Below, one piece after another: positions 12,214-31,673 of a stretch of DNA of 35,164 nt. Under the pieces are notes generated by a model. That model made no database searches, was not told where the DNA came from, and saw only the letters and a program-made list of their open reading frames with translations. A program made the translations under genes and the position numbers. The stretch lies in NCBI GenBank assembly GCA_947487165.1, contig CANKWX010000042.1:1-35164 (forward strand), in the 5' to 3' direction. This DNA is from Burkholderiales bacterium. Its GTDB lineage: Bacteria > Pseudomonadota > Gammaproteobacteria > Burkholderiales > Burkholderiaceae_E. How positions within the stretch are numbered: position 1 is the stretch's first letter; each line of letters starts with the position of its first letter.

Positions 12214-12221
12214 GGTGATCC

Positions 12222-14862: not shown

Positions 14863-17097
14863 TTACTGGCTGAAGCGTTTGATGACGTTGTCGAGGATGC
14901 GCGAGATGTCGTTGTCGAAGTGATTGACCGGCAGCGATCCGCAGAAGGTGATCGAGCCGACAGAAAAAACTTCACCGCCACCTGGGCAATCAAACCAGGT
15001 CATATCGGCGCGAATCAGGGCCTTGTGGGTCTCGCCAGGGATGGTTGTGATGTGGGTGAGCTGTTCTTCCGGCACGAGCATCCAGGGCGCCTCGGGCGGG
15101 TGATTTTCGGAGGCTGCGATCACGATGGCGTTTTCGGGCGAGCCCAGGCGCTTGTCGACACGGTCAAGCTCAAAGCCTGCCGCGCCATGCCCCGAAAAGC
15201 CCTCGCCACCGACGGTGTCGGCGGTGACGCCCTCAAGGATCCAGCTGACCTTCGGGTTGCTGCGGGCAGATTGATTGATGCGGTAGTACGAGCCCACGAA
15301 ATTGCCCTGCGCGGTAAAGCCTACCCCGACCAGCTTTTGCGGTGGCCTGGCATTGCGCCGCCACAGGCCGCCGTATTGCGCATCGAACTGGTTGTAGTAC
15401 TCGCCGGGCTCGGCAGCCCAGGCCCGGATACCACCTTCGCCCCGGCGAATCTCGACGATGCCCTCGCGCGCCGGATCGAGCGCGATCTTCCAGTAAAAGC
15501 CGTTGCCGCCCAGATAGACCAGCTTGCCACCGCTGTCGCGATAGCGCTGCAGGGCATCGAGCATATGAGGTGTGTGGTACTCGGGATGCGAGCCGGTCAC
15601 GACCACCTTATAGGGTTCGAGCAGCGCCTGACCTTCGCTGTTCAGTTCGACATCGGTGATCAGGTCGACCTCATGGCCCTGATGCGCCAGCCACATCAGC
15701 AGGTGACTGTCTGCCGGATAGTGGCGCAGACCCGAGCCGCGGATCTCCGGGTAGGGGTAGGTGAGGTAGCCCACGCGAAGATTGAGCATCGGACGGCGCC
15801 AACTGACCAGCCCGATACCCGAGCCGTCGGTGTGATAGTTGTAGGTCGACAGGCCGTAGTCGCGATGCTCGCCCGGGTTGTAGGGGTAGGCCTTCCAGGC
15901 TTTGACCTGATCAACATAAGCCGCGCGCCAGGCTGGGTCGATCATCCATTCGGGGCGCGCGTGATTGCCGTAAACGGTATAGGTGAAGGTCGATACCAGC
16001 ACCGCAATTTTCGCGCTCGCCTGGCCCTTGGGCGGTACGACAAAAAAAGGAATATTTTCCTCGATGTCGCCGGCCTTCAGAATCAGCGCATAAGCGTCCG
16101 ACTTGAGGCCGTCGGGCAGTGTGACCGCATGCGTCGCCGGCCAGCAGCAGTCATCCAGATCGTCATCATGGAAATGGATGGCGCCATATTGCTCGGGCGC
16201 GTGCCGAAAGCAGTGTTCCTCGCCGGTCCAGTTCGAGCCGACGACCGCGCGGGTCGGGGTATTGACCAGCTTGCCATGGTTGCCTGCCGGCCCGCCGTCG
16301 ATGATGCGGCTGGTGTGCATCTCGCGCGCAAAATCCCAGTTGCCGATGCAGGCGTCGCCTGCAGCCATGGCCAGGGCGTCGATCCCATCTGGATCAGTCT
16401 GCGTCACATCAGCCAGGGAGCGGGCCAGAAGCACCGGATGTTCGAGGCGGCCATTGAAGGTGTCCACCGGCGCCGTGCCGCTCGCACTGGCAAAGCTCAG
16501 CGGACAAGGCCCTGCGTCGAGCGTCGGTGTCCCCGGCAAGCCGACGCTCAGGGCCTGGTTTGCTGACCGATCGGCAATTGGTGTGGCCGACAGGCTCACG
16601 ATGGCCCCGACATAATCGACGGTCAGCGTCACGATGGTCCAGGTGTTCAGCGCAACAGGCTGCGCGGATTCAATCATGCACAGGCCTGCGGCGGTGCCGA
16701 TCGTGCCACGCAGGGTGAGCGCGGGGGTGAGCTCGAGTGAGATGCCGCGACCTTGGTCGTCAAGACACGACATGATCACCTGTCGCCTGAGCAGGGCGAG
16801 TGTCGGGCGGATACGAATCGAAAACCTGCAGTCGCTGGTGTGGCTCAGAAGCCCTTCTCGCATCACGACCGCATAGGACCCACTCGGCACCGTTTGCGGA
16901 CCCGGCTCGATCAGGGTCGTGACCTCGATCGCAACCGGCTCGGTGCTGACGCCGCCGATTTCTGGATTAGGGTCGGCACACCGCACACGCACCACGCTGG
17001 CAGTGACCCTTGCACCGGTGGCGTTGGCGACATGAAACCGCAGGGTGTCTCCGGGTCGGGCGGACAGGCGTTCGGCGTAACCAGCAAGGGGCAGCAT
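14863..17097 (-). CDS. N,N-dimethylformamidase large-subunit-like protein
   Basis: The 744-residue product resembles the beta subunit of N,N-dimethylformamidase (DmfA2), an iron-dependent amidohydrolase. The N-terminal third (to about 330) is beta-rich; residues 85-225 look like a LamG/concanavalin-type sandwich. The C-terminal half carries the family's glutamine-amidotransferase-like core with TVYGNHARPEW, YNYHTDGSGIG, VVTGSHPEYHT and LVYLGGNGFYWK. The Paracoccus enzyme binds a mononuclear iron through two Tyr and one Glu. Tyr376, Tyr421 (or Tyr419) and Glu506 are the likely equivalents here by motif position, which is inference. No gene for the small alpha subunit (about 130 residues) is adjacent, so the substrate may differ from dimethylformamide. 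It has no signal peptide. It starts 30 bases after the pseudoprotease-like gene and precedes acnD. Confidence 0.8.
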   Translation of the reverse strand: MLPLAGYAERLSARPGDTLRFHVANATGARVTASVVRVRCADPNPEIGGVSTEPVAIEVTTLIEPGPQTVPSGSYAVVMREGLLSHTSDCRFSIRIRPTLALLRRQVIMSCLDDQGRGISLELTPALTLRGTIGTAAGLCMIESAQPVALNTWTIVTLTVDYVGAIVSLSATPIADRSANQALSVGLPGTPTLDAGPCPLSFASASGTAPVDTFNGRLEHPVLLARSLADVTQTDPDGIDALAMAAGDACIGNWDFAREMHTSRIIDGGPAGNHGKLVNTPTRAVVGSNWTGEEHCFRHAPEQYGAIHFHDDDLDDCCWPATHAVTLPDGLKSDAYALILKAGDIEENIPFFVVPPKGQASAKIAVLVSTFTYTVYGNHARPEWMIDPAWRAAYVDQVKAWKAYPYNPGEHRDYGLSTYNYHTDGSGIGLVSWRRPMLNLRVGYLTYPYPEIRGSGLRHYPADSHLLMWLAHQGHEVDLITDVELNSEGQALLEPYKVVVTGSHPEYHTPHMLDALQRYRDSGGKLVYLGGNGFYWKIALDPAREGIVEIRRGEGGIRAWAAEPGEYYNQFDAQYGGLWRRNARPPQKLVGVGFTAQGNFVGSYYRINQSARSNPKVSWILEGVTADTVGGEGFSGHGAAGFELDRVDKRLGSPENAIVIAASENHPPEAPWMLVPEEQLTHITTIPGETHKALIRADMTWFDCPGGGEVFSVGSITFCGSLPVNHFDNDISRILDNVIKRFSQ

Positions 17098-17127
17098 GTC
17101 AGATTCCAGAACAGTTAAACCGGCCGC

Positions 17128-18114
17128 TCAGTGCGCAGTGGGCCGGTACATCATTGAATTGCGATCGGCCGAGCGGATGCGCAGTTTGAGCAACTCGCCT
17201 TCGCGACCCAGCGTCAGCGGCACCTCGACACCGGCCGGCCCCAGCGCCCAGACCGTGCGCAGAAAGGTCGCCAGCGAATGCACCCGCGTGCCGGCAACAT
17301 CCAGAATCAGATCGCCCTGCTGCAGACCCGCCTGCATGGCCGGGCCCTTGTCGGCAATGCCACCGACGATCACGCGGTTGTCATCTTCTGCGGCGTAAAG
17401 ACCGAGCCAAGGTCGTGTCGGCTGGCCGCTCTGACCGGTGGTCATCAGGCTTTCCAGGATCGGCTCGAGGATGTCGATCGGCACAAACATATTCCCCTGC
17501 CCGGACTGGTCGTCCGGGTCGCCGTCGATCGCCTGCTGCAAGAGCAGCGAGCCGATGCCGATCAGTTCGCCGCTTGAATTGAACAGTCCGGCACCGCTCC
17601 ATTCGGGATGCGGGGGCGTTGTAAAGAGGGCAGCCTCAAGCAGGTATTCCCAATAGCCGGCAAAGGGGCGCTTGTCGGCCAGGCGGGCTTTGAGCGCATG
17701 CGTTTGCCCGCCATGGCTGAGCAAATACACGGTATCGCCGACTTGCGACAGGCGGCTTTCAGCCCGTTGCACCGACCTTGCCTTGAGCGGACCCAATGCC
17801 TTGAGCAGACCGAAGCCGGTGGCCTGATCGTAAGCAAGCGGCACTGCCTGAACGACCTGACCCGAGCGGGTGGTGAGAAAGACAGCCTGAGCTTCAGTGA
17901 TCAGATAGCCGATGGTCAGGACCGTACCCCGATCATCCAGCACGACCCCGCTGCCGCTGCGCGAGGTGCCGAGGGTATTGGCGGTGAAAGCCTGCTCGGG
18001 CACATCGGCTCGAAGTTCGACAATCGCATCGAGCCGTGCGTCGAGATCGAAGCTCAGGTCTTTGGCCTTTGGTACCAGAACATCGGGAAAGGACCAGTCT
18101 TTGTAATGACTCAT
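17128..18114 (-). CDS. HtrA-like S1C-fold protein with PDZ domain, probable pseudoprotease
   Basis: This 328-residue protein has a trypsin-like double barrel at about 28-215 and a PDZ domain at about 232-318 (PWLGLYAAEDDN, GPAMQAGLQQGDLILDVAGTRV). Aligning its motifs to HtrA: the TNNHVV catalytic His position is Tyr70 (LTIGYLIT), the Asp of the SDIAL motif is Gly100 (ATGFGLLK), while Ser173 survives in WSGAGLFN in place of GNSGGPLVN. Two of three triad residues are therefore missing, and proteolysis is doubtful. It lacks a signal peptide or membrane anchor, unlike typical HtrA proteins, so it is probably cytosolic. A ribosome binding site (AGGAA) precedes the ATG. It is the first gene of the minus-strand run and is divergent from the dehydrogenase operon. 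A scaffold or sensor role is only a guess. Confidence 0.78.
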   Translation of the reverse strand: MSHYKDWSFPDVLVPKAKDLSFDLDARLDAIVELRADVPEQAFTANTLGTSRSGSGVVLDDRGTVLTIGYLITEAQAVFLTTRSGQVVQAVPLAYDQATGFGLLKALGPLKARSVQRAESRLSQVGDTVYLLSHGGQTHALKARLADKRPFAGYWEYLLEAALFTTPPHPEWSGAGLFNSSGELIGIGSLLLQQAIDGDPDDQSGQGNMFVPIDILEPILESLMTTGQSGQPTRPWLGLYAAEDDNRVIVGGIADKGPAMQAGLQQGDLILDVAGTRVHSLATFLRTVWALGPAGVEVPLTLGREGELLKLRIRSADRNSMMYRPTAH

Positions 18115-18181
18115 TGCATTGATTCCTCGCCAAGCGCTTGCTGCCTGGCAATTGTCTGATCGAAACCGAACAGGCGCATTT

Positions 18182-18191
18182 GAGCATGCTC
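18182..18191. promoter_or_regulatory. 10-bp palindrome in divergent intergenic region
   Basis: GAGCATGCTC is a perfect palindrome located midway between the pseudoprotease and dehydrogenase starts. It may be chance at this length; it is recorded because it shares the intergenic region with the stronger inverted repeat at 18227. Confidence 0.2.
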
Positions 18192-18226
18192 GCCTGGCTT
18201 ACCTTGACTTGCCCAAGGGTTAAGTA

Positions 18227-18246
18227 ATAACGTTATATATCGTTAT
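18227..18246. promoter_or_regulatory. Candidate operator: ATAACG-N8-CGTTAT inverted repeat
   Basis: Perfect 6-bp arms flank an AT-only 8-base centre (TTATATAT) in otherwise GC-rich DNA. The left arm is also part of the 10-bp palindrome ATAACGTTAT (18227-18236). A -35-like TTGACT lies at 18204-18209, which would place the site over the -10 and start region of the plus-strand operon. The HutC-type GntR regulator is the second gene of that operon, so autoregulation through this site is a natural inference. Confidence 0.5.
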
Positions 18247-18281
18247 ATGTTTGCTTCAACCAATTGGAAGGCAGGGCGTCG

Positions 18282-19226
18282 ATGAGTACGACAAACCGGG
18301 CATCGGCGGCTTCGCCGACAGGGAAAGGCGCAGGGAGCGCATCGGACAGCCGGATCGGGTTCATCGGACTGGGTCTGATGGGCAGTGGCATGGCCATGAA
18401 TATCCTGAGAAAGCATGGCCAGCTCACTGTCAGCGATGTGGATGCCCGGGCGCTTGAACCACTCGTGTCTGCAGGGGCTGCAGAAATGGCCTCGCCGCGT
18501 GCATTGGGCGAGGTCTGCGATGTGGTGCTTTTGTCGTTGCCCGATCCGTCAATCTCCAGGCAGGTGATCCTGGGCCCCGAGGGGCTGATCCATGGTCTGG
18601 CAGCCGGTGCAACCGTGGTCGGAATGTCGACCGACGGTATCGAAGCGGTCAGGGAGATTCACGCGGCACTCGCCGCCCGCCAGATCCGCTTTGTCGATTG
18701 CCCGGTCGGCAAGGGGCCGACTGCCGCCGCGGCGGGCGAGCTAGCGCTTTTCGTATCAGGCGATCGCGATACCTGCGAATCGCTGCGCTGGCTGCTGTCG
18801 ATGATCGGCAGCAAGATCGATTACTGCGGGCCGATCGGTGCCGGGCAAGCGATCAAGCTGGCCAATAACCTTCTGTCATGCGGCTATGGCGCACTGATTT
18901 CGGAGGCCTACGCGATGGCCAAGAAGGCCGGCGCTGATCTCGACATTTTTTGCGAAGCCTTGCCGCAGACGGCGGCCAACAGCTGGCCGCTGCAGAATGT
19001 CTTTGTGGCGAAAGCTTTCAAGGGCGATTTCACGCCTTACTTTCGCCTGTCGGCGGCGCATAAGGATTACAAGCTGGTCGTTGCGATGGCCGACGCCCTG
19101 GGTACGCCGAGCAGTGCGGCCCGCGCGGTGCTGGCTTATTACACGGCGGCAGCGGCTGCAGGTCACGGCGAACGAGACTTCGGTGCACTGGCACTCGTGA
19201 ACAATCCGGAGCTGCTCGACGAATGA
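18282..19226 (+). CDS. NAD(P)-dependent beta-hydroxyacid dehydrogenase (3-hydroxyisobutyrate dehydrogenase family)
   Basis: The 314-residue protein oxidises a beta-hydroxyacid or reduces a semialdehyde such as tartronate semialdehyde; the substrate is not identifiable. The Rossmann motif FIGLGLMGSGMAMNIL lies at about 27-42. The substrate-binding segment VDCPVGKGPTAAAAGELAL corresponds to the family DAPVSGG block, and Lys192 in GAGQAIKLANNLL is the catalytic lysine. The ATG at 18282 is preferred, with GGAAGG and CAGGG upstream; a TTG at 18264 would add six residues. It is the first gene of the plus-strand run, directly downstream of the AT-rich inverted repeat, and is 25 bases before the GntR regulator. 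Confidence 0.85.
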   Translation: MSTTNRASAASPTGKGAGSASDSRIGFIGLGLMGSGMAMNILRKHGQLTVSDVDARALEPLVSAGAAEMASPRALGEVCDVVLLSLPDPSISRQVILGPEGLIHGLAAGATVVGMSTDGIEAVREIHAALAARQIRFVDCPVGKGPTAAAAGELALFVSGDRDTCESLRWLLSMIGSKIDYCGPIGAGQAIKLANNLLSCGYGALISEAYAMAKKAGADLDIFCEALPQTAANSWPLQNVFVAKAFKGDFTPYFRLSAAHKDYKLVVAMADALGTPSSAARAVLAYYTAAAAAGHGERDFGALALVNNPELLDE

Positions 19227-19251
19227 CGGTGTTACCCGTTCTTTTTGTGTC

Positions 19252-20079
19252 GTGGATTCGCTGATGAGCCCGGCGGTCAAGGCGAGCATCAGACGCGATG
19301 CGCAGCCGATGCTAAACCGTGACAGTCCGATCGCATTGCATCGTCAGCTCGCACAGCGGCTGCGCGATGCGATTTACGGCGGCACCTACAAGCAGGGCGA
19401 CAGCATCCCCACCGAGCAGGCGCTGATGGCGCAATACCAGGTCTCGCGCATTACCGCGCGTCAGGCGGTCATGCAGTTGGTGACCGAAGGTCTGCTGGTG
19501 CGCCGCCAGGGCAAGGGCAGCTTTGTGAGCGCGCAGCCGGTACAACACCCTCTGGTTGACCTGCGCGGCTTTTACGATGAACTGGTTGCCGGTGGCGTGA
19601 ACCCGGAAATCGAGCTTCTGGAATTCGACAGGCGAGTGCCGCAACCGAGGGTCGCCGAACGCCTGCGATCGGGTGCGCAGTCGCTCGTGAGCTGGAAGCG
19701 GCTCTATCGTCGCGGCGGTGAACCCTTCGCGGTGGCATGGGTCTACCTGGCGCCGATCGTTGGCAAGGTGACGAGCGAGATGGCCTCGATGCACACCTCG
19801 TACCACATCATCGAAAACCTCAAAATGCTCAAGATCGAACGCGCCGATATCTCGATACGCGCCCAGCCATCGACCGCTGAAACCCGCAAGCTGCTGCGCA
19901 TGCCGCCTTCGACGCCGATCCTCGCGCTCGAGCGGGTGACTTATCTGGCGGACGGCACACCGGTCGAATACGACCTTTATTGCGCCCATGCGGATTTGTA
20001 TGAATACGCATTCAAGGTTGGCAGCAAGGTCAATGTGGCCGATGCACTGGCGCGCCGCGCCGAGGCGATCAGCCCCTGA
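19252..20079 (+). CDS. GntR family transcriptional regulator, HutC subfamily (UTRA domain)
   Basis: This 275-residue DNA-binding regulator has a winged helix-turn-helix at about 20-90, containing ALHRQLAQRLRDAIYGG, GDSIPTEQALMAQYQVSRITARQAV and the wing LVRRQGKGSFV. A UTRA ligand-binding domain follows (about 110-265), with SWKRLYRRGGEPFAVAW and PILALERVTYLADGTPVEYD. Such proteins usually repress a catabolic operon until a pathway metabolite binds. The start is GTG at 19252 or ATG at 19264; neither has a strong ribosome binding site, and the gene could be translationally coupled. It lies 25 bases after the dehydrogenase and 33 before the DUF3604 gene, so it likely controls this locus. Confidence 0.9.
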   Translation: MDSLMSPAVKASIRRDAQPMLNRDSPIALHRQLAQRLRDAIYGGTYKQGDSIPTEQALMAQYQVSRITARQAVMQLVTEGLLVRRQGKGSFVSAQPVQHPLVDLRGFYDELVAGGVNPEIELLEFDRRVPQPRVAERLRSGAQSLVSWKRLYRRGGEPFAVAWVYLAPIVGKVTSEMASMHTSYHIIENLKMLKIERADISIRAQPSTAETRKLLRMPPSTPILALERVTYLADGTPVEYDLYCAHADLYEYAFKVGSKVNVADALARRAEAISP

Positions 20080-20112
20080 CGCGAGCAACCGGCCCCATCA
20101 AGGAGAAGGCTC

Positions 20113-22356
20113 ATGCAACACTCGAATTATTTCCCCGAACGGATGGGGCACGCCCGGATCTCGCCCGAAGGACGGTTTGAAGCCGGGTCCTTCCAGTCGT
20201 TCGAGCTGGTCTACACCGCGGGTTACTTCGGCATCGATGACACCGGCTCTCTCAAGATCGTGCACCGTTTTGCGAGCGATATGGGTCGCCCGCAGTGGAG
20301 CGATCCGGCGGCAGCCAACTACACGACAGTCCAAGCCTCCAATGGCGCCGTGCTCGAAGTGCAGTACGACGGAAAACGCAATATTCGCCCCTGGGACAAG
20401 ACCCTCTTTATCCGCGTTATCCGCGGCTTCCTTCGCGAAGGCGACACCATCACGGTGCGTTTCGGCGATCGTTCGAAGGGTTCGCCGGGCATGCGCGTGC
20501 AGACCTTCAGCGAGCCGACCTTCGAGTTTCGGGTACTGGTTGACCCGTTTGCGACCTATCACTACACCGCGCTGCCGATTCAGCCGGTGATTTCAGTGGT
20601 GGCCGGGCCGCCGGTGCTCTGGAAGGCAGTCGTCCCCACCTTGCGCCAGTGCGGTCAGCGGTTTCGGCTGGGCTTCAAGGGCGAAGACAAGTGGGGCAAT
20701 CCCAGCGATCAGGTGCAGGGCACCTTCACCCTTCGCTCAAGCCATCCGATCAATGGCCTGCCTGCCGAATTTTCGATGAAGCCTGGCGAGCATGCGCGGG
20801 TCTTTGACAATCTGTCGGTGACCGAGCCCGGGGAGGTGCGGATCGAGGTGTTTGATGCTGCCGGAGCGCGCCTTTGCGAAAGCAATCCGATGCGCATTGC
20901 GTCCGAGGCGCCGCTCCTGCACTACTGGGCCGATCTGCATGGTCAATCGGAGGAGACGATCGGTACCAACTCGGCGCGTGAGCTGATCGAGTTTGCGCGC
21001 GACCGGGCCTTTCTCGATGCGATGAGCCATCAGGGAAACGACTTCCAGATCACCACGCCGTTTTGGGAGGAGCTCAATCGACTGACCGCGCAGTTCAATG
21101 AAGACGGCCGCTTCGTCATCTATCCGGGCTATGAGTGGTCAGGCAATACCGGTCTCGGTGGCGATCGCAACGTCATGTTCATGCAGGAGGGCAGGCCGAT
21201 TCATCGCTCATCGCATGCGCTGCTCGATGATCTGTCGGACCTCGAGACGGATGCCAACAGTGCGACCGATCTCTTCAAAGCCCTGAAGGACGAGGATTGC
21301 GTGGTGTTCGCGCATATCGGCGGACGTTATGCCGATATCAAGATGGCGCACGATCTGCGCATCGAGCGGTCGGTCGAAGTGCATTCCGACTGGGGCACCT
21401 TTGAATGGCTGGTCCACGACGCGATGGAGCAGGGCTATCGCATTGGCATTCTGGCCAATTCAGACGGTCACAAGGGGCGACATGGTGCGAGCCACCCGGG
21501 AGCATCGCTCTTTGGCGCTTATGGCGGGCTGTCGTGCCTGATCGCGCCCGAGCTGACCCGCCAAGCGCTCTTCGATGCCCTGCGAAAGCGCCACCACTAC
21601 GCGACAACCGGCTGCCGCATGATGCTTGATGTCAAGGCGCGCTTCGACAGCGGTGCGCAGCGCTATGCTGACGATCCGAATCTGGGGGTCAGCACGGCCG
21701 AGCTGGTGCGCGAGGCGATGATGGGCGACATCCTGCATGCCGTCGATGAACAGCTCGAGTTCAGTGTGCATGCGGTGGCATCGGCGCCAATCGAGCGCAT
21801 CGAGATCCGCAACCGACTCGAGGTGCTCGAGACCTGGCGCCCGTATGCTGACCACGAACTGGGCCGACGGATCCGGGTCATCTGGGAAGGCTCGGAGTAT
21901 CGCGGACGGGGGCGTCAGACGGTCTGGGATGGCGGCTGTACGCTCAGCGGCAATCGCTTTGAACGCGTCGCGCCGATCAACCTCTGGAACCTCGACAAGC
22001 AGATCGTTCAGACCAGCCCCGAGTCGCTTGAGTGGGCCGCGCTGACAACCGGTGGCTTCGGTGGCTTCGATGCCTGGCTGGGCGACGCGCGTTCGGGCGT
22101 GCTGAGCATTGACACCCCGCTGGTCAAATGCAGCATCAGTATTGCCGAGATCGGTCGTGATGACAGGGTCTTTGAGGCCGGCGGTATCGGTCGACGCATC
22201 AGGGTTTTTCGTCTGCCCGATGAGAATCGGCATAAGGAGCTTGTGCTCTCTCGTCGCATCCGGCTCAATACTGGCGTCGATAATGCGCTGTATGTCTGCA
22301 TCACCCAGGAAGACGGGCATCTGATCTGGTCGAGTCCGATCTATGTGACTCGCTGA
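20113..22356 (+). CDS. DUF3604 / PHP-like metal-dependent hydrolase family protein
   Basis: The 747-residue protein has a beta-rich N-terminal part (1-260) and a DUF3604 region from about 265. The likely metal ligands are in YWADLHGQS (Asp274, His276), YPGYEWSG (about 337-344), FAHIGGRYAD (His401), EVHSDWG (His424) and NSDGHKGRHG (Asp451, His453). The pattern of Asp/His clusters resembles PHP-type phosphoesterases, but the reaction of DUF3604 proteins is not established. No signal peptide is visible. AAGGAGAAGG about eight bases before the ATG supports the start at 20113. It sits between the GntR gene and the Bug binding protein in the catabolic operon. Hydrolysis of an ester or amide intermediate would fit, but that is inference. 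Confidence 0.82.
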   Translation: MQHSNYFPERMGHARISPEGRFEAGSFQSFELVYTAGYFGIDDTGSLKIVHRFASDMGRPQWSDPAAANYTTVQASNGAVLEVQYDGKRNIRPWDKTLFIRVIRGFLREGDTITVRFGDRSKGSPGMRVQTFSEPTFEFRVLVDPFATYHYTALPIQPVISVVAGPPVLWKAVVPTLRQCGQRFRLGFKGEDKWGNPSDQVQGTFTLRSSHPINGLPAEFSMKPGEHARVFDNLSVTEPGEVRIEVFDAAGARLCESNPMRIASEAPLLHYWADLHGQSEETIGTNSARELIEFARDRAFLDAMSHQGNDFQITTPFWEELNRLTAQFNEDGRFVIYPGYEWSGNTGLGGDRNVMFMQEGRPIHRSSHALLDDLSDLETDANSATDLFKALKDEDCVVFAHIGGRYADIKMAHDLRIERSVEVHSDWGTFEWLVHDAMEQGYRIGILANSDGHKGRHGASHPGASLFGAYGGLSCLIAPELTRQALFDALRKRHHYATTGCRMMLDVKARFDSGAQRYADDPNLGVSTAELVREAMMGDILHAVDEQLEFSVHAVASAPIERIEIRNRLEVLETWRPYADHELGRRIRVIWEGSEYRGRGRQTVWDGGCTLSGNRFERVAPINLWNLDKQIVQTSPESLEWAALTTGGFGGFDAWLGDARSGVLSIDTPLVKCSISIAEIGRDDRVFEAGGIGRRIRVFRLPDENRHKELVLSRRIRLNTGVDNALYVCITQEDGHLIWSSPIYVTR

Positions 22357-22425
22357 GTCAGTCGAGCAACTGGCCAGCCGTCGAGTTTGCGCGGCACACC
22401 ACCAATCATTCAAGGAATGGTCTCA

Positions 22426-23403: not shown

Positions 23404-23418
23404 GCAAGGAGCATCGTG

Positions 23419-25746
23419 ATGTCCGGGAACAAACAGGCCAGCCCTGAGCAACAGCCCTCGATCGGCCATATCGGCAAGACGTTTGCCGATTCGATGCCGC
23501 ACTGGATCGCTCCGGTACGGGCCGCGCCAGGCAGCCCCAATGTCATCGTGATCCTGATGGATGATATGGGTTTTTCGGACCTTGGCTGTTTCGGCGGCGA
23601 GATCGACACGCCCAACATCGATGCGCTGGCCGGCAACGGTTTGCGCTTCACGAACTACACCACGGTGCCGATGTGCACGCCGGCGCGCGCGGCATTGCTG
23701 ACCGGCAAAAATCCCCATAGCGTCGGTTGTGGCTGGCTCGCGCACAACGATCCCGGCTATCCGGGTTACAAAGGCGAGATCTCGCCCGACGCGCCAACGA
23801 GCGCTGAGATCCTGCGCCTGCACGGCTATGCCACGATGGCCGCCGGCAAGTGGCATAACACCTACGATCGAAACAATTTTCAGGGGGGCGACACCAGTTC
23901 CTGGCCGGTGCAGCGCGGCTTCGACCAGTTCTATGGGTTCATGTCGGCCGAGACCAGCTATTTTCAGCCCGACAACATGATGGAGGGCAATCAGCCCGCC
24001 CAGGTACTGCGTTATCCGGAGGGCTATTTCGCGCCCGATGACTACACCAGCCGATCCATCGACTGGATCTCGCAGCACACCACCTCCTCGCCCGACAAGC
24101 CCTTCTTTCTGTATCTGGCCTTTCAGACGCCCCATGGCCCCTTGCATGCCAAGCCTCAGGATCTCGCGCGCTACAAGGGTCGCTACGATGCCGGCTGGGA
24201 TGTGATGAGACGGCAGCGCTTCGAGCGTCAGCACGCTGCCGGTCTGACCGAGCCTAATGCCGGCTTTGCCCCGCGAAATCCGGGTGTACCGGTCTGGGAC
24301 GATCTGAGTGCCGATGAGCAGGCACTGTTTGCGCGCTACATGGAGGTCTATGCCGCGCTTATCGACAATGCCGATCAGAACATCGGCCGGCTGGTGAGTT
24401 TTTTGCGCCAGACCGGTCAGCTCGACAACACCCTCATCATGCTCACCTCCGACAACGGCGCCAATGCCGTGGCCGGGCCAAGCGGTGTGATGAATCTGGT
24501 GGGGCGCCGGGTCGGTGCAGTCGAAGACATGGCGCTCAATCAGCGCTTGCTCAAAGAGGGCAAGGTTGGCGGCGAAGACACCTATATCTGCTATCCGACC
24601 GGCTGGACCCAGGTCAGCAATACCCCTTATCGTTTTTTCAAGCGCACACCGATGGCAGGCGGCATCCGCGTGCCATTGGTGGTCCATTGGCCGGCCGGCA
24701 TTGCCGACAAAGGTGCCCTGCGCAAGCAGTGGGTTCATGTCACCGACGTCCTGCCGACGCTGATGTCTTTGGCGAGCGCGACATTGCCCGAGGATTTCAA
24801 GGGCTATCGCACCCGAGCGCTCGACGGCCGCAGTTTTGCCAGTCTTTTCAACGATGCGCAGGCGCCGTCATTGCGCAATCGTCAGTATTACGAACTGCAG
24901 GGCAATCGCGCCTATATCGCAGGAGGCTGGAAGATCGTCTCGCTGCAGTCGCCTGACAAGGCGATGGACATGCACAACTGGATGCTGTTCGATCTGGCCA
25001 ATGACCCGGCCGAAATCACCGATCTGGCCGCAAAGCATCCGGAGATCGTTGCCCGACTGGTGGATGAGTTCGATCAGGAGGCCGGGGCGAACTATGTCTA
25101 TCCGATCGACCTGCGAGATGAGCGACGCGGGCTTCAATTGCCGCCCTATGAGCTTGACCGCGTGCTGCTGCCGCGCGAATTCTTTCGCGCCGGTCAGTCG
25201 ATTCCATCGGTTGTCATCACGCCGCTGATTGCCGATCGCAGTTATGTGCTCACCGCACGCTTTGACTGGCAACCAGGCAACGATGGCATCATCTTCGCGC
25301 TGGGCGACCGCTTTTTCGGTCTGGTGCTCTTTGTCGAGGATTCGGCCTTGCACTGCATCTATCAGCAGTGGCATAACCCCAAGACGCTCAGGCCGATCGC
25401 GCTGACTGCCGGAGCCCAGCATTTCGAATTCGATTACCGAGCAACCGGCGGGCGCAAAGGTCATGCGACGGTGTCGCTCAACGGCACTCGCCATCTCGAA
25501 GGCGTCGACCTGTCGCCCACGCTGATGCGGATTCCGAGTTGCGGCATGAGCATCGGTGTGTCACGGCGTCTGGCGGTCAGCGAGCGTTATGAACACCGCG
25601 GTGCGTTTGAATACCGCGGCCTGATCGATCGGATTCGTATCGAGCCTGGCGAGATGGCACCCGGCAGCCTGGTGGAACCCAGCGAAGAGGCGTTTCAGGC
25701 CAAATTGCGCGCCGCTGCTGCCGCGCAGGCGCTTGCGCCGGACTGA
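23419..25746 (+). CDS. Cys-type sulfatase (arylsulfatase family), large form with C-terminal beta domain
   Basis: This 775-residue sulfatase hydrolyses a sulfate ester; the substrate is unknown. Metal ligands Asp48/Asp49 lie in ILMDDMGFSD. The maturation motif CTPARAALLTG has Cys86, converted to formylglycine, and Arg90. AAGKWH and TSDNGANA supply further active-site residues. Residues from about 590 to the end form an added beta-sandwich typical of large bacterial arylsulfatases. The N-terminus (MSGNKQASPEQQ) has no signal peptide, so the enzyme appears cytoplasmic. The ATG at 23419 has AAGGA eight bases upstream; the preceding GTG at 23416 is an alternative. Maturation is likely carried out by the FGE encoded at 28360. 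Confidence 0.92.
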   Translation: MSGNKQASPEQQPSIGHIGKTFADSMPHWIAPVRAAPGSPNVIVILMDDMGFSDLGCFGGEIDTPNIDALAGNGLRFTNYTTVPMCTPARAALLTGKNPHSVGCGWLAHNDPGYPGYKGEISPDAPTSAEILRLHGYATMAAGKWHNTYDRNNFQGGDTSSWPVQRGFDQFYGFMSAETSYFQPDNMMEGNQPAQVLRYPEGYFAPDDYTSRSIDWISQHTTSSPDKPFFLYLAFQTPHGPLHAKPQDLARYKGRYDAGWDVMRRQRFERQHAAGLTEPNAGFAPRNPGVPVWDDLSADEQALFARYMEVYAALIDNADQNIGRLVSFLRQTGQLDNTLIMLTSDNGANAVAGPSGVMNLVGRRVGAVEDMALNQRLLKEGKVGGEDTYICYPTGWTQVSNTPYRFFKRTPMAGGIRVPLVVHWPAGIADKGALRKQWVHVTDVLPTLMSLASATLPEDFKGYRTRALDGRSFASLFNDAQAPSLRNRQYYELQGNRAYIAGGWKIVSLQSPDKAMDMHNWMLFDLANDPAEITDLAAKHPEIVARLVDEFDQEAGANYVYPIDLRDERRGLQLPPYELDRVLLPREFFRAGQSIPSVVITPLIADRSYVLTARFDWQPGNDGIIFALGDRFFGLVLFVEDSALHCIYQQWHNPKTLRPIALTAGAQHFEFDYRATGGRKGHATVSLNGTRHLEGVDLSPTLMRIPSCGMSIGVSRRLAVSERYEHRGAFEYRGLIDRIRIEPGEMAPGSLVEPSEEAFQAKLRAAAAAQALAPD

Positions 25747-25808
25747 GACGATGATTCATACAGGTCGACAGGCCGGTTGAATAACCAGTGACACGACGGG
25801 AGACTGAA

Positions 25809-26675
25809 ATGACATATCAGAAAATCAAGGTGCGGCAATTGGGTGGCGCGGGCGGTGCCGAAATCACCGGTGTCGATCTGGCCTGCGCCGATGACGAGAC
25901 AATTGCCGAAATTCACCGGGCGATGCACGAGTTTCTGGTGGTGACCCTGCCCGATCAGCCGATCGACGATGCGCAGTTGGCGCGATTCACCTCCCGACTG
26001 GGACCTTTCGGGCTGGAGCCCTTCGTTGAGGGTGACACCACGCATCCTAATGTGATCGCGGTGGTCAAGGAGGCCGACGAAGTCCGGCGACTGAATTTCG
26101 GCGGCAACTGGCACAGTGACTGGAGCTTTCTCGAAACCCCGCCGAGCTACACCTTGCTGCATGCCCGCGAACTGCCGCCTTTTGGAGGCGATACCCTGTT
26201 CGCCAATCAATACCTCGCTTTCGAGTCACTGTCCCCCGGCATGCAGGCGCTTTTGAAGGGCATGCAGGCGGTCCACAGCGCACGCCGCCCCTATGGTCCG
26301 AACAGCCACAATGCCAATGGCGGGCATCTGCGGTCGATGAAGATCAAGACCGGTCCCGAGGCAATGGCCGAGTTCGTTCACCCGGTGGTGCGTACTCATC
26401 CGGCTACCGGGCGTGAAGCGCTCTTTGTCAATCGGGTCTATGCGATTCGTCTCGCAGAGATGACCGAGCCCGAGAGCGCGCCGTTACTGAATTACCTGAC
26501 CGAGCACTCGGTCCGCCCTGAATTCATCGTCAGAGTGAGCTGGCGCCCGAACATGCTGACCATCTGGGACAACCGGGTGGTGCAGCACCTCGCGGTCAAT
26601 GACTACGACGGTTATCGCCGGGAGCTTCACCGGACATCGGTCCTGGGTGAAGTGCCGGTCCTTGTCACTCAATAA
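25809..26675 (+). CDS. TauD/TfdA family Fe(II)/2-oxoglutarate dioxygenase
   Basis: This 288-residue non-haem iron oxygenase uses 2-oxoglutarate and oxygen. The facial triad is His102 and Asp104 (HSDWSF) plus His260 (NRVVQHLAVNDY). Arg271 and Arg275 in YRRELHRTSVLGE match the spacing of the two 2-oxoglutarate-site arginines of TauD (11 and 15 residues after the distal His). Family members attack taurine (TauD), alkyl sulfates (AtsK) or 2,4-D (TfdA); the substrate cannot be told from sequence. A position between two sulfatases makes an organosulfur substrate plausible. The ATG at 25809 has GGGAG six bases upstream; a GTG at 25788 would add seven residues. Confidence 0.9.
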   Translation: MTYQKIKVRQLGGAGGAEITGVDLACADDETIAEIHRAMHEFLVVTLPDQPIDDAQLARFTSRLGPFGLEPFVEGDTTHPNVIAVVKEADEVRRLNFGGNWHSDWSFLETPPSYTLLHARELPPFGGDTLFANQYLAFESLSPGMQALLKGMQAVHSARRPYGPNSHNANGGHLRSMKIKTGPEAMAEFVHPVVRTHPATGREALFVNRVYAIRLAEMTEPESAPLLNYLTEHSVRPEFIVRVSWRPNMLTIWDNRVVQHLAVNDYDGYRRELHRTSVLGEVPVLVTQ

Positions 26676-26702
26676 TTTGCCCAGCTTTCACCGGATACCG
26701 AT

Positions 26703-28337
26703 ATGACAACAGTCAAGCCCAATGTGGTGCTGATCCTGAACGACGATATGGGCTTTTCCGATATCGGTTGTTATGGCGGCGAGGTCGACACCCCGCACCT
26801 TGATCGCCTCGCTGCGAACGGGCTGCGCTTCAGTCAGTTCTACAACACAGCACGCTGCAGCCCGTCGCGTGCGTCGATGCTCACCGGTCTTCATCCCCAC
26901 CAGACCGGTGTTGGCATCCTCACCTATGACTCCGGGCCCGAGGGTTATGCCGGCAATCTGAATCAGCGCTGCGTGACCATTGCGCAGGCGCTCAAGACCA
27001 GCGGCTACCGGACCTACATGAGCGGAAAGTGGCATGTGGCTTCAAGCCTGACCAAGCCGACCGATACCTGGCCGCTGCAGCGCGGTTTCGACGAGTTTTT
27101 CGGCACCATCATCGGTGCCGGCAGCTTTTACGATCCGAACACCCTGACTCGCGGCAATGCCAATGCCGAGCATGAGGCGCGCGCCGAGGGGTTTTTCTAC
27201 ACCGATGCCATCAGTGATCAGGCGGTCGCCTATATCGACCAGCATGCGTCAACGCATGGCGATCAGCCGTTTTTTGAGTATGTGGCCTATACCGCACCCC
27301 ACTGGCCTTTGCATGCGCACGAGGCCGACATTGCCAAGTACAAGGGCCGCTTCGATGCGGGTTGGGATGCGCTGCGCGAAGCACGCCTCGAAAAGCTGGT
27401 CGCTTCCGGGATTCTGAAGGACGCCTGGAAGCTGACCGAGCGCGACCCGAGTCAGCCGCCCTGGAGCGAGGCGCAGGCCGACGAGCAGTTTCGGGCCTGG
27501 ACTCTGCGCTGCATGGAGGTCTATGCGGCCCAGATCGATCGGATGGATCAGGGCATCGGTCGCATCATCGCGGCGCTTGAGCGCACCGGGCAACTCGACA
27601 ACACCGTCGTGATCTTTCTGGCCGACAACGGAGCCTGCGCCGAAGACATTCCTGAGGGCGTGACCATCGATGAACTGGTCAATAAGCTGATGATCGCGCG
27701 CGACACCACGCGCACTGGCGAGCCGGTGCACTTCGGCAATGACACCGGCCGCATGCCGGGACCTGAGAACACCTACCAGAGCTATGGCACGGCCTGGGCC
27801 AATCTATCGAACACGCCATTTCGCCTCTACAAGCACTGGATCCACGAGGGCGGCATTGCCACACCGCTGATCGTGCACTGGCCTGCCGGAATTACCGACA
27901 AGGGCGGAATCCGGCATGCCCCGGGCTATCTGCCCGACATCATGGCCACCGTCCTCGAGATCACCGGTACGCCATACCCTGCGAGCTTCGAGGGGCGTGC
28001 GATTGATCCGCTTGAAGGCCGCAGCCTGATGCCGGTCTTCAGCCAGGATGGCGGCGCACGGCCGCCGATGTTCTGGGAGCATGAGGGCAATGCCGCCGTG
28101 CGGATCGGTCAGTGGAAACTTGTCAAGCGCTATCCCCTCGACTGGGAGCTTTACGACCTCGAGGCAGACCGTACTGAGCTCAATGACCTTTCTGCCCAGC
28201 ATCCCGCGCGGGTGGCCGACATGGCTGCCCAGTACGATGCCTGGGCCGCGCGTTGTGGGGTGATTCCCCGCGAGAAGATCGTCGCGCTGATGAGCAGCCA
28301 GGGCGTGACCCGCGCCTTCTGGGAGAAAGACGAATAG
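26703..28337 (+). CDS. Cys-type sulfatase (arylsulfatase family), compact form
   Basis: The 544-residue protein is a second sulfatase of the locus. It shows metal ligands Asp14/Asp15 in [11 protein letters not shown], the maturation motif [11 protein letters not shown] with Cys52 and Arg56, MSGKWH, APHWPLH, and [10 protein letters not shown]. It lacks the C-terminal beta domain of sulfatase 1 and has no signal peptide. The two share a domain order but differ widely in sequence, so they probably act on different esters or different steps. The ATG at 26703 begins 27 bases after the dioxygenase; its ribosome binding site is weak. It is followed after 22 bases by the FGE gene, which supports a matched enzyme-maturase pair. 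Confidence 0.92.
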
Positions 28338-28359
28338 CCTGAGCGGGCAGGGGGCAGGC

Positions 28360-29277
28360 GTGGCAGCAAGCGGCGCATCCTGCTGCGGTCCGAGGGCGGC
28401 AGGCACTGCGGCGCCTGAGCCGGGGTCGATCACGCCCAAGGACCGGTCCGCGACCGACCAGGGCAATGCGCGCGTCCGCGGTCGCTGGTGCGAGATCCCA
28501 GGCGGGACCTTCATAATGGGCAATGAGGGGCCCGATGCGGTGCCGGGCGATGGCGAGGGGCCGATACGGTCAGTGGCGCTTGATGGCTTTCGCATTGCAT
28601 CGACCACGGTGACCAATGCCGAGTTCGCCGATTTCGTGCGCGCCACGCGCTACATCACCGATGCCGAGACGCAGGGGACGTCCTTCGTGTTCTACCTGCA
28701 GGTCAACGAATCGGTGCGCAAGGCGGCCCGTCAGGTGGTAAGCGGCTTGCCGTGGTGGCTGCCGATCGAGCATGCCTCGTGGCAGCGCCCGGAAGGCCCC
28801 GGATCACATCTGCACGATCGGCCATCACACCCGGTGGTCCATGTCTCCTGGAACGATGCGATGGCCTATTGCGAGTGGGCCGGTGTGCGCCTGCCGAATG
28901 AAGCCCAATGGGAATGCGCCGCCCGCGGCGGACTTGAAGGACTGCGCTTTGCCTGGGGCGACGAACTGTATGACGCGGCAGGGCTGCCGCGCTGCAATGT
29001 CTTCAGGGGCCGGTTTCCGGATGCGCCTGCTCAGGGATGGCTGCCTCAGCCGGTTGATGCTCGAGCGGGTGATCCGAATGGGTTTGGCCTGCACAACGTC
29101 TGCGGCAATGTCTGGGAGTGGTGTGCAGAAACGCTGGCAGGCGGTCAACGCCCACTGCGCGGCGGGTCCTTCCTGTGCCACGACTCCTACTGCAACCGCT
29201 ATCGTGTTTCGGCCCGCAGCTCGAATACCCCGGACACCGCCAGCAGCAATATTGGTTTTCGGGTGATCAGCGCCTGA
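28360..29277 (+). CDS. Formylglycine-generating enzyme (SUMF1/FGE family)
   Basis: FGE oxidises the motif cysteine of Cys-type sulfatases to formylglycine, using copper and oxygen. The 305-residue protein has the SUMF1 core from about residue 42 ([16 protein letters not shown]), [43 protein letters not shown], and the terminal block [15 protein letters not shown]. Cys273 and Cys278 there correspond to the copper-binding pair of aerobic FGEs, and [16 protein letters not shown] completes the signature. The N-terminal 40 residues are a low-complexity extension containing Cys8-Cys9-Gly-Pro-Arg. The start is a GTG at 28360 with a G-rich Shine-Dalgarno-like tract; no ATG precedes the core. It is the last gene of the run and converges on a cupin gene with a 3-base gap. 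Confidence 0.92.
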
Positions 29278-29280
29278 TTG

Positions 29281-29778
29281 TCAAACCCCGCCCTGCGGAT
29301 GCGTCGGATCGATCCAGAGCACGGTTTCGGGCTTTTCGACCGGCTCGATGTCGATATTGACCGCGACCGCCTGACCGTCGCTGCGGCACAGGACGCACTC
29401 GAGCATCTCGCTGGCACTGGCGTTGATTTCCTGATGCGGCACATAAGGCGGCACGTAGATGAAGTCGCCCGGGCCGGCTTCTGCGGTGAATTCAAGCTGA
29501 TTGCCCCAGCGCATGCGGGCGCGCCCCTTGATCACATAGATCACGCTTTCAAGTGGGCCATGGTGATGGGCGCCGGTCTTGGCATCGGGATGAATATGCA
29601 CCGTGCCGGCCCACAGTTTCTGGGCGCCGACCCGTGCGAAATTGATCGCTGCTTTGCGGTCCATACCGGGCGTTGAGGGCACATTGCCGTCAAGCTGGTC
29701 ACCCGGGACGACGCGAACGCCGTCGTGCTTCCAGTCGGTTGGCGCTTTGTGATCGTGATGTTCGTGCGTGTCTGACAT
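29281..29778 (-). CDS. Cupin domain protein
   Basis: This small protein of about 165 residues has one cupin barrel. Motif 1 is GAHHHGPLESVIYVIKG and motif 2 is PGDFIYVPPYVPHQEIN, together giving a typical three-His metal site with a nearby Glu. The N-terminus (SDTHEHHDHKAP) is rich in His. The enzymatic activity is unknown. The ATG at 29778 is preferred because AAGG lies about nine bases upstream; an ATG at 29796 would add six residues. It follows the thiol-dioxygenase-like gene on the same strand after 48 bases, and is convergent with FGE. Confidence 0.82.
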   Translation of the reverse strand: MSDTHEHHDHKAPTDWKHDGVRVVPGDQLDGNVPSTPGMDRKAAINFARVGAQKLWAGTVHIHPDAKTGAHHHGPLESVIYVIKGRARMRWGNQLEFTAEAGPGDFIYVPPYVPHQEINASASEMLECVLCRSDGQAVAVNIDIEPVEKPETVLWIDPTHPQGGV

Positions 29779-29826
29779 GCGTGTCGCCTTCATCAAAATT
29801 GAAATCGTTCGGCACTTTAGCGCGTT

Positions 29827-30402
29827 TCAGCGCGCCTCCCGGATATCGGAGTGAGGCGGAAAGACCGACCAGACATTCTCCCGCGCCTTGTAATAACGCC
29901 GTTTGTCGAGCTGCTCCAGGCCCAATCCATACATATGGAAATTGATCAGCGGTGCATCGATGTGAATCGAGTGCAGATCCTCGGGCATGAAGCTCACTCC
30001 GGTGCCGGCCTTGACCATGAACTGACCAGACTCTCGAACGCCGCCCTCAGGGGTCGGCTCGTAAAAGCGATTGAGCTCCTCGCCTGTCACGCCGACGATG
30101 ACCGCCCAGGTGGTGTGATTGTGGGCGGGTGTGCCATAGCCGCCGAGCGAGGCATTGGCATAGAGCGCAAAGCGGTGATCCTCATCTTCGGACAGACGAT
30201 AGAGCGCCGAACGCATGCCGCTGTCCGCCGGCGGGGGCGCGAAATCATCGGTACTGAACAGGTCTGTTCGACTGGCCAGGCCAATCAGTTGCTGCCGGAT
30301 GAGTGCCAGCGCATGAGGGTTCACACCATCGCGGGCTTCGATGGCACGGATCTGCGCGACAGTCTGAGCCACGGCCTGGCGGCGCTGGTCGATTCTATTC
30401 AT
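29827..30402 (-). CDS. Cysteine/3-mercaptopropionate dioxygenase-like cupin
   Basis: The 191-residue protein resembles type I thiol dioxygenases, which oxidise a thiol to a sulfinate with Fe(II) and oxygen. The iron ligands are predicted as His94 and His96 (PAHNHTTWAVIVGV) and His144 (MPEDLHSIHI). The ELNRFY segment follows as in the family. The protein contains no cysteine at all, so it cannot form the Cys-Tyr cofactor of mammalian cysteine dioxygenase; bacterial 3-mercaptopropionate dioxygenases share this absence. AGGAG precedes the ATG. It is divergent from the serine hydrolase across 65 bases containing a perfect inverted repeat, and probably cotranscribed with the downstream cupin. The thiol substrate is not known. 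Confidence 0.8.
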   Translation of the reverse strand: MNRIDQRRQAVAQTVAQIRAIEARDGVNPHALALIRQQLIGLASRTDLFSTDDFAPPPADSGMRSALYRLSEDEDHRFALYANASLGGYGTPAHNHTTWAVIVGVTGEELNRFYEPTPEGGVRESGQFMVKAGTGVSFMPEDLHSIHIDAPLINFHMYGLGLEQLDKRRYYKARENVWSVFPPHSDIREAR

Positions 30403-30417
30403 GGTCGTCTCCTGAAA

Positions 30418-30441
30418 GACGCATGCTAGATTCGATGCGTC
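30418..30441. promoter_or_regulatory. Candidate operator: GACGCAT-N10-ATGCGTC inverted repeat
   Basis: Perfect 7-bp arms at 30418-30424 and 30435-30441 flank a 10-base spacer. The element occupies the middle of the 65-base region between two divergent starts (30402 and 30468), so it could control both. It could also form a hairpin in the leader RNA. No cognate regulator gene is adjacent. Confidence 0.4.
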
Positions 30442-30467
30442 GATTTAGCCAGTCATAGGCCCGCCGC

Positions 30468-31673
30468 ATGAATACCTTTCCTTTGCCTACCGCAGAACCC
30501 GAATCGCTCGGTTTTTCGACCGACGGCCTGGCAGTCATCGACGCATTTTTCGATCGCGAGATCTCGGCATCACGGCTGCCCGGCGCCGTGCTGGTGATTG
30601 CGCGCGAGGGGCGTCTGCTGCATCACAAGGCCTATGGTCTGAGTGATCCTGCGGCAGGCACGCCGATGAAGCTGGATACCGTGTTTGCCCTGGCCTCGAT
30701 GACCAAGATCATGGTGAGCGTGGCCGCGCTGCGACTGATGCAGGAGGGCAGACTGCCTCTGAAAAGCCGCCTGGACACCTACTTCCCGGGCTTCGGTCGC
30801 ATGAAGGTGGGCCGCGATGATGGCCACGGTGGCATGGCCCTTTTTGCGCAGGAGCGGCCAATCTTCATTCACGACCTGCTTCGCCACACCGCCGGCATCA
30901 CCTATGGCGGACGCGGCATCGGGCCGGCCGCTGCGCTGTGGCCGGCGACCAGTGCGGTGATGTTCTCGGACACTGCCGAGTCGTTCATCGAGCGGATCAC
31001 TGCTTTGCCGCTGACGCATCAGCCCGGCACCGCTTTCGAATATGGCTATTCCACCGACATTCTCGGGCTGGTCATCGAGAAGGTCACCGGAATGCGGCTG
31101 CGCGACTATCTGTCCGAGATCCTCTGGAAGCCTCTGGGTATGAACCAGACCGGCTTCGAGTTGACCGCCGAGCGCAAGGCGCGCGCAGCGCGGCCTTTTT
31201 CGGTCAGCCCTTTCGATGGCAAGCCCCAGTCGGTGACCGTGGTCGAGCAGCAGACCTCTCATGACTGGGGCGGCGCGGCTGCGCTCGGCACGGTGTCCGA
31301 TTACCTGCGTTTCGGACAGATGCTCCATGACGGTGGGATCTTTGAAGGTCAGCGTATCCTCAGTCCGCAGGTCGTGGCGCTGATGACTTCGGACCATCTG
31401 ACCGGCAGCATGATCAACACGATCACGCTGACCGAGCCGCATCGGGACGGCTATGGCTTTGGTCTGGGAGTCGCGGTGAGAACCCGTCCAGGCATTGCCG
31501 CAGTGCCGGGGCGCATCGGTGAATTCAGCTGGAATGGCGCCTACGGGACGATCTTCTTTGCCGACCCTGCCGAGAAACTGGTGGTGGTGGCCGGCACGGT
31601 GGCGCCCGGCGAGATCCGCAAGGTGTATCGCGAGCAATTGCAGAATCTGGTGTATGGCGCGATGACCCGCTGA
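30468..31673 (+). CDS. Serine hydrolase of the class C beta-lactamase fold (family VIII esterase-like)
   Basis: The 401-residue protein has the catalytic SMTK tetrad at Ser77-Lys80 and the second motif at Tyr194 in EYGYSTDILGLVIEKVTG. In that motif the usual YxN is YST, as in EstB-type family VIII esterases. There is no signal peptide, so it is probably a cytoplasmic esterase or amidase rather than a periplasmic beta-lactamase or penicillin-binding protein. The length and the C-terminal block SWNGAYGTIFFADP fit the esterase group. The ATG at 30468 follows the divergent inverted repeat. Its neighbours suggest a role in ester hydrolysis in the same catabolic locus, which is inference. Confidence 0.87.
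   Translation: MNTFPLPTAEPESLGFSTDGLAVIDAFFDREISASRLPGAVLVIAREGRLLHHKAYGLSDPAAGTPMKLDTVFALASMTKIMVSVAALRLMQEGRLPLKSRLDTYFPGFGRMKVGRDDGHGGMALFAQERPIFIHDLLRHTAGITYGGRGIGPAAALWPATSAVMFSDTAESFIERITALPLTHQPGTAFEYGYSTDILGLVIEKVTGMRLRDYLSEILWKPLGMNQTGFELTAERKARAARPFSVSPFDGKPQSVTVVEQQTSHDWGGAAALGTVSDYLRFGQMLHDGGIFEGQRILSPQVVALMTSDHLTGSMINTITLTEPHRDGYGFGLGVAVRTRPGIAAVPGRIGEFSWNGAYGTIFFADPAEKLVVVAGTVAPGEIRKVYREQLQNLVYGAMTR

Follow-up and report, generated by a model that had tools for sequence, protein, structure and literature searches.

A conserved putative operon with two sulfatases, a DUF3604 protein and a single predicted operator in Burkholderiales

The stretch of DNA analysed here, termed the window, comprises 35,164 bases of contig CANKWX010000042.1 (C42) from a Burkholderiales bacterium, whose assembly (GCA_947487165.1) totals 3.78 Mb in 140 contigs. 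It contains a locus of about 17 kb that a first-pass annotation, made from the letters alone, had read as a single uncharacterised catabolic locus. At its centre is a run of eight plus-strand genes (18282-29277) separated by 12-41 bases, where the first-pass annotation gave 15-69. The run opens with a member of the beta-hydroxyacid dehydrogenase family (HIBDH, 18282-19226; PF03446, PF14833), whose open reading frame (ORF) opens at TTG 18264 and whose likely start is ATG 18282. This is followed by a GntR/UTRA regulator (19252-20079; PF00392, PF07702), a DUF3604 protein that is a probable PHP-fold metallohydrolase (20113-22356; PF12228), a Bug/TctC periplasmic binding protein (22387-23403; PF03401, 226 bits), a formylglycine-type sulfatase with C87 in a CTPAR motif (sulfatase 1, 23416-25746; PF00884), a TauD/TfdA-family dioxygenase (25788-26675; PF02668), a second formylglycine-type sulfatase with C52 in CSPSR (sulfatase 2, 26703-28337; PF00884) and a formylglycine-generating enzyme carrying C273 and C278 (FGE, 28360-29277; PF03781, 222 bits). 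Reading frames and active-site motifs are intact, including CTPAR and CSPSR in the sulfatases, CHDSYC in FGE and HSD in TauD. Judged by gene content and order across related genomes, the 17 kb is a conserved plus-strand unit, from HIBDH to FGE, plus separate neighbours.

Upstream of HIBDH lies a palindrome, ATAACGTTATATATCGTTAT (18227-18246, without strand), that is predicted to be a GntR-family site. The shared intergenic operator proposed earlier is thus real as a sequence, with one match in the window and none in 100 shuffles. In a genus set of 12 genomes, the window's own (G000) included, AACGTTATATAWCGTT occurs without mismatch and at one site per genome in six (G000, G001, G002, G003, G005 and G007), and these are the same six that hold a full or contig-split DUF3604 gene. 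The other six lack the operator and have no DUF3604 except distant partial family matches in G004 and G010; a reversed-pattern control found no match in the genus genomes. Diverged versions of the operator stand upstream of HIBDH in locus L095 and in the group formed by L042-L045, L053 and L090, and upstream of an aldehyde dehydrogenase gene in L041 and L088. From this position and co-distribution we infer that the GntR protein binds the palindrome at 18227.

The unit extends well beyond the genus. A search with the DUF3604 protein, using one genome per species, gave 63 loci with flanks of differing length, and a tree was built by a quick search without bootstrap from 59 rows (the window plus 58 of the loci, five partial or short loci having been dropped). 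The sulfatase-linked DUF3604 proteins form a single group of 16 rows, with a Shimodaira-Hasegawa-like approximate likelihood ratio (SH-aLRT) support of 99. At least part of sulfatase 1 follows DUF3604 in 14 of these 16 loci, and in the other two (L039 and L040) the contigs stop inside Bug. No sulfatase-cluster member was found in the loci of tree rows outside the group; L082 has a single distant sulfatase match (29%) about 9 kb away. One further member, L083 from congener G002, was left out of the tree. Where the contig reaches, HIBDH-GntR-DUF3604 is the constant part, around which the other genes are rearranged: sulfatase 2-FGE lies upstream and Bug after TauD in L088 and L095, a transporter-linked ABC-sulfatase 2-FGE unit sits directly behind sulfatase 1 in L045 and L090, and the aldehyde dehydrogenase gene precedes HIBDH in L041 and L088. 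At most three candidates were scored in each of 300 Burkholderiales genomes, and among these sulfatase 1 at 80% identity or more is confined to G000 and G028, both of which carry DUF3604; some match at E 1e-50 occurs in 35 of the 300, at no more than 54% identity outside these two. The conserved gene set, as read from these comparisons, is a combination of known enzyme families maintained in several Burkholderiales lineages with rearrangement, and its retention over these lineages supports the earlier proposal that two sulfatases, their maturase and a Bug binding protein belong to one regulated catabolic unit. Four of the records compared (L042, L045, L083 and L096) are metagenome bins titled Bordetella parapertussis; these titles are probably mislabels, and the DUF3604 proteins of these bins group with those of the window and of other Burkholderiales bins or share 95-98% identity with them.

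Both sulfatases have the features of S1 formylglycine sulfatases, namely the PF00884 domain and a C-x-P-x-R motif. All 13 sequences at 50% identity or more that span the sulfatase 1 motif keep CTPAR, and all 14 covering that of sulfatase 2 keep CSPSR. Sulfatase 1 has no signal peptide as judged by eye, and its best solved relatives are the arylsulfatases 7all and 1hdh. The maturase has an FGE domain with both active-site cysteines of the aerobic type, the pattern CHxSYC being present in 13 of 13 sequences, and it aligns with the bacterial FGE 5nxl at 286 bits.

The genomic setting of sulfatase 2 suggests that it belongs to a module of its own. In the 11 group genomes outside the genus, an orthologue (75-83%) is found in ten; it is inside the DUF3604 locus in G331, G334, G335 and G336, and on a separate contig in the remaining six (G327-G330, G332 and G333). 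In these six unlinked copies sulfatase 2 is preceded by an ATPase gene and, as far as the contigs extend, by genes for a sugar-type ABC binding protein and permeases, and FGE follows it. After FGE come a glycerol kinase, a GlpD-like protein and a choline-dehydrogenase-like GMC protein in G328, G329, G330 and G332, with an AroE-like gene next in three of them, while the contig of G333 stops after FGE. The operon of ABC transporter, sulfatase 2, FGE, glycerol kinase, GlpD-like protein and GMC oxidoreductase is recorded as loci L200-L203, with the AroE-like gene in L200-L202. Family models for these surroundings were run on the G329 (L202) copies only, where the glycerol kinase GlpK scores above the NCBIfam cutoff (701 vs 590 bits). 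The ABC binding protein is present in all seven non-genus group genomes searched, the query's own among them. Within the genus, sulfatase 2 is found in 5 of the 6 DUF3604 carriers and in none of the 6 non-carriers. The two modules co-occur even where they are unlinked, which is often, and the window, L045 and L090 have them joined; this suggests a shared substrate class, although the co-occurrence may also come through shared ancestry.

A simpler explanation is sulfur scavenging, in which broad arylsulfatase-like enzymes would free sulfate in low-sulfate water and the fate of the carbon skeleton would be irrelevant. TauD-type oxygenases, too, can serve sulfur supply. The nearest solved relatives of both sulfatases include the Pseudomonas aeruginosa arylsulfatase 1hdh, which has been placed in family S1_4 (PMC5066984). 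However, a dedicated GntR/UTRA regulator, whose predicted site occurs once in the genome, belongs to the unit, and enzymes that would act on the carbon side accompany it: HIBDH, aldehyde dehydrogenase in L041 and L088, and GlpK/GlpD-like proteins beside sulfatase 2 in four genomes. We regard scavenging as less probable than the reading preferred below, and as the most credible of the rivals weighed here.

To the left of the operator, on the minus strand, lie a DMFA2 gene (14863-17097; PF20254, DMFA2_C), encoding a relative of amide hydrolases, and a trypsin-like/PDZ protein paired with it (17128-18114; PF13365, PF13180). The latter is a probable pseudoprotease, judged by eye to have lost its protease motifs. 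The closest solved relatives of DMFA2 are N-acetyl-(R)-beta-phenylalanine acylase (8huy, 554 bits) and the large subunit of dimethylformamidase (6lvb, 385 bits). It has the two-tyrosine, one-glutamate iron site, intact in the window: Y376, Y419 and E506, kept in 5 of 5 copies, align with the iron ligands Y399, Y440 and E521 that PMC7686228 gives for parDMFase. By eye, no ORF for a dimethylformamidase small subunit adjoins DMFA2 in the window; the subunit family was not searched genome-wide.

The first-pass annotation had made this protein part of one pathway, in which, in the form weighed here, it would cleave the amide bond of a sulfated N-acyl compound. Its intact iron ligands and a best solved relative that acts on N-acyl amino acids would suit such a role, and its distribution gives some support: within the genus it is found in 6 of 6 carriers vs 1 of 6 non-carriers (Fisher p 0.015, uncorrected for kinship), it flanks the operator together with PDZ in five genomes (G000, G001, G002, G003 and G005), and the three group genomes outside the genus that hold it (G327, G334 and G336; 79-81%) are the same three that hold a TauD orthologue. 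Against this, DMFA2 has no match in the other 8 of the 11, lies on another contig in all three of those that have it and in congener G007, and occurs, in two fragments, in G009, a genome without DUF3604. PDZ adjoins the unlinked DMFA2 in L207 and L208, and no operator was found at unlinked copies. G003 has a second PDZ-DMFA2 pair off the locus, on C290 (L138; 79-80% identity), which may reflect duplication or contamination (5%). On these distributions DMFA2-PDZ is a separate unit, adjacent to the operon only in this genus; DMFA2 may be accessory rather than core, its membership as first proposed is not supported and stays doubtful, and the single pathway that includes it is somewhat less probable than scavenging. 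A 732-residue protein in L044 and L053 had been suspected by its length of being a DMFA2 homologue, and the L044 copy proved to be a catalase-peroxidase. The acnD-DMFA2 adjacency recurs in congeners G001, G002, G003 and G005; in the window, a class I fumarase gene (6419-7945) and prpF-acnD genes of the methylcitrate type (11023-14816) lie left of the locus.

On the other side, FGE ends 3 bases before a convergent cupin gene (29281-29796, minus strand; PF07883, 40.9 bits vs a cutoff of 27.2), which is followed by a small ORF, cupB (29827-30402, minus strand), and a beta-lactamase-fold esterase (30468-31673, plus strand; PF00144, 187.5 bits). The gene families named in the first-pass annotation are all present in their places with the exception of its second cupin, since cupB matches no Pfam or NCBIfam model. 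All three genes are syntenic neighbours and follow FGE in the same order in G001, G002 and G005. Orthologues of cupB occur in five other genus genomes (73-92%); the copy of G007 lies outside the locus, and G009, which also has one, lacks the locus. The ratio of non-synonymous to synonymous substitution rates (dN/dS) against congener G005 is 0.06-0.15 for all 13 genes compared, from DMFA2 to the esterase (for FGE over 243 codons only), and all are therefore maintained, passengers included.

Of the enzymes in the unit, DUF3604 is the least understood, and our literature search found no published function for it. Across 32 of the 64 members available, which come from Alphaproteobacteria, Betaproteobacteria and Geotalea, mean column identity is 76% and H276, E280, E281, H306, D310, E341, H401, E422, H424, D451 and H453 are invariant, a pattern resembling that of PHP enzymes. 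Cultured members of the wider family include Reyranella aquatilis KCTC 52223, Limnohabitans sp. 2KL-51 and Caenimonas sedimenti HX-9-20. The CehA/McbA metallohydrolase model matches 30 of the 32 weakly, the window's protein scoring 33.1 bits vs the NF038032 cutoff of 80. Among solved structures, a low-confidence model of the catalytic domain (pLDDT 60) matches 3e38, titled PHP-like, best (E 2.8e-5), and the PHP proteins 3e0f, 3o0f and 7rty come next (E ~0.002). Profile comparison with the PHP enzyme RNase AM of Escherichia coli gave no match (probability 0.1%). A Foldseek search of the whole model against PDB and viral structures was set aside, the matches being mainly immunoglobulin-like or beta-rich with a query-normalised TM of at most 0.23 among the 50 listed; one viral protein named PHP-domain stood among them. 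The RNase AM comparison speaks against a PHP fold and the whole-protein searches were uninformative; a PHP-fold metallohydrolase nevertheless seems the likely identity of DUF3604.

The best NCBIfam model for HIBDH is 2-hydroxy-3-oxopropionate reductase, at 179.5 bits vs a cutoff of 397, and the sulfolactaldehyde reductase model gives 176.7 vs 348. The dioxygenase has the PF02668 domain and HxD iron ligands of the TauD/TfdA superfamily (HxD kept in 8 of 8), and its nearest solved chain is the RdpA-type 6d1o (234 bits), ahead of TauD (184) and AtsK (108); against the taurine dioxygenase model of NCBIfam it scores 218.7 vs a cutoff of 313. Outside the genus, an orthologue at 83-85% is present in 3 of the 11 group genomes, the best match in the other eight being 46% or less.

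Sulfonate genes accompany DUF3604 in other clades. ComA-like genes lie near it in 12 of the 63 loci (the one tested scored 138.6 bits vs a cutoff of 280), TauE in three, and SdhB/D/C-like genes in seven, three of these with fumarase genes. SuyB is near DUF3604 in six (one, L058, a fragment), at 79-84% identity to a gene of the hpsN-hpsO operon of Cupriavidus pinatubonensis HN-2 that is annotated UxaA and is taken here as SuyB. UxaA-like genes in L072 and L074 were ruled out as SuyB at 32% identity. Clusters drawn from SuyAB, SdhB/D/C-like genes, TauE, ComA-like, DUF3604 and fumarase, in varying subsets, are seen in L055, L080, L098, L058, L052, L056, L071, L075 and L078, together with a Bug or SsuABC-like transporter and an SdhA-like flavoprotein. 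Such a cluster is likely an undescribed sulfonate cluster, in which, as a guess, the ComA-like lyase might free sulfite from a sulfo-dicarboxylate. A plasmid of Sulfitobacter S190 (L177) combines DUF3604 with TctABC, fumarase and an Sdh-like set, and in Achromobacter (L073, L076, L077, L079, L084 and L097) DUF3604 is flanked on one side by LysR and Bug, and some kb off lie an IlvD-type dehydratase and MFS transporter (by eye) and an HIBDH-family gene.

Because of these SuyB, ComA-like, TauE and Sdh-like neighbours, an organosulfonate pathway was kept as a rival for the window, whereby TauD would free sulfite, DUF3604 would act as in its sulfonate-linked relatives and the sulfatases would serve a second group. 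However, no SuyB, ComA-like or TauE gene turned up in the window's group of loci, the TauD orthologue is missing from eight of the 11 genomes, and the window's enzyme matches RdpA-type chains better than it does taurine dioxygenase; this is the least probable of the readings considered. A broader idea, tentative and less likely than not, is that the DUF3604 proteins of this subfamily represent a new kind of PHP-type enzyme central to organosulfur catabolism. They would act on a fragment that sulfate esters and sulfonates share, and would have either of two sets of partners, namely sulfatases, FGE and TauD in the window's group and SuyAB, TauE, ComA-like, succinate-dehydrogenase- and fumarase-like proteins in other clades.

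The reading that we prefer, at a probability of roughly 0.45, is that two older modules have been joined into an operon, under local regulation, through which a sulfate ester is taken up and broken down inside the cell and whose likeliest substrates are sulfated C3 units (glycerol or glycerate sulfate, free or conjugated). Module 1 would consist of HIBDH, GntR, DUF3604, Bug and sulfatase 1, and module 2 of sulfatase 2 and its maturase. GntR would keep the unit off through the palindrome until an inducer arrives. Bug would bind a sulfated carboxylate in the periplasm and pass it to a tripartite permease, for which no gene is present in the window, no search having been made elsewhere in the assembly. 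FGE would convert Cys87 and Cys52 of the sulfatases to formylglycine, the established chemistry of these families, and the sulfatases would then take off sulfate in the cytoplasm. DUF3604, as a PHP-type metallohydrolase, might cut a further bond (ester, amide or phosphoester), after which HIBDH could oxidise the hydroxyl group so freed, turning a beta-hydroxyacid into a semialdehyde, and an aldehyde dehydrogenase, such as that encoded beside HIBDH in L041 and L088, could oxidise this further. TauD, found in only part of the group, might open a C-O or C-S bond in a substrate variant. From the make-up of the modules, a sulfated C3 polyol or hydroxyacid is most likely the substrate, and the best model for HIBDH, a C3 enzyme, was counted in its favour.

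Several observations weigh against this proposal. HIBDH, TauD and DUF3604 fall under every NCBIfam cutoff, and the co-occurrence counts are uncorrected for shared ancestry. The GlpD-like protein of G329 scores 299 bits, under its cutoff of 360, both the window and G327 (L205) lack GlpK/GlpD beside sulfatase 2, and a search of the 12 genus genomes at E 1e-60 found the CUT1 ABC binding protein in none. G337 lacks sulfatase 2 at E 1e-150, carrier G003 has no close copy (40% for the best among the matches listed), DUF3604 of L095 is divided over two overlapping ORFs, and sulfatases resembling sulfatase 1 (at most 54%) adjoin Bug genes without a DUF3604 match in the stretch read in L160-L162.

Most useful among these results are the corrected borders of the unit, the single operator and the division of the sulfatases between two modules. 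With its genes and regulator site delimited, the conserved operon offers a handle for finding the substrate, and DUF3604, an unstudied enzyme family, gains a first testable context for its reaction. Lakes or fresh water appear in the titles of three records of the group (Lac Pavin, Baikal and SFB_Fresh), and low-molecular-weight organic sulfate is, to our knowledge, poorly charted in the sulfur and carbon cycle of lakes. No description of this gene set as a pathway was found in the literature searched, within which the earlier statement to that effect holds.

Compared with known systems, the unit shares with formylglycine sulfatases and their maturases (S1, S1_4-like, e.g. P. aeruginosa AtsA) the Pfam family, the C-x-P-x-R motif and a maturase gene adjoining a sulfatase gene, and it differs from them in having two sulfatases within a GntR-controlled unit alongside HIBDH, DUF3604 and Bug. 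Its dioxygenase has the fold family and HxD iron motif of the alpha-ketoglutarate dioxygenases RdpA and TauD, yet it stays below the taurine dioxygenase cutoff, and the alkylsulfatase AtsK is far lower. DMFA2, outside the conserved unit, matches 8huy and 6lvb over its full length and keeps the iron ligands, whereas dimethylformamidase has a small subunit whose gene is not seen alongside. DUF3604 is akin to the CehA/McbA metallohydrolases and PHP phosphoesterases in its weak domain match and in the PHP-like best solved match of its modelled domain; unlike them, it has an extra N-terminal half of beta domains, and its 33 bits contrast with a CehA/McbA cutoff of 80. Finally, the 2,3-dihydroxypropane-1-sulfonate (DHPS)/sulfolactate operon of C. 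pinatubonensis holds hpsN, hpsO, a SuyAB-like pair annotated UxaA, and Bug; close relatives of the SuyAB pair and a Bug gene likewise adjoin DUF3604 in sister clades, whereas the window's group has sulfatases where SuyAB would be.

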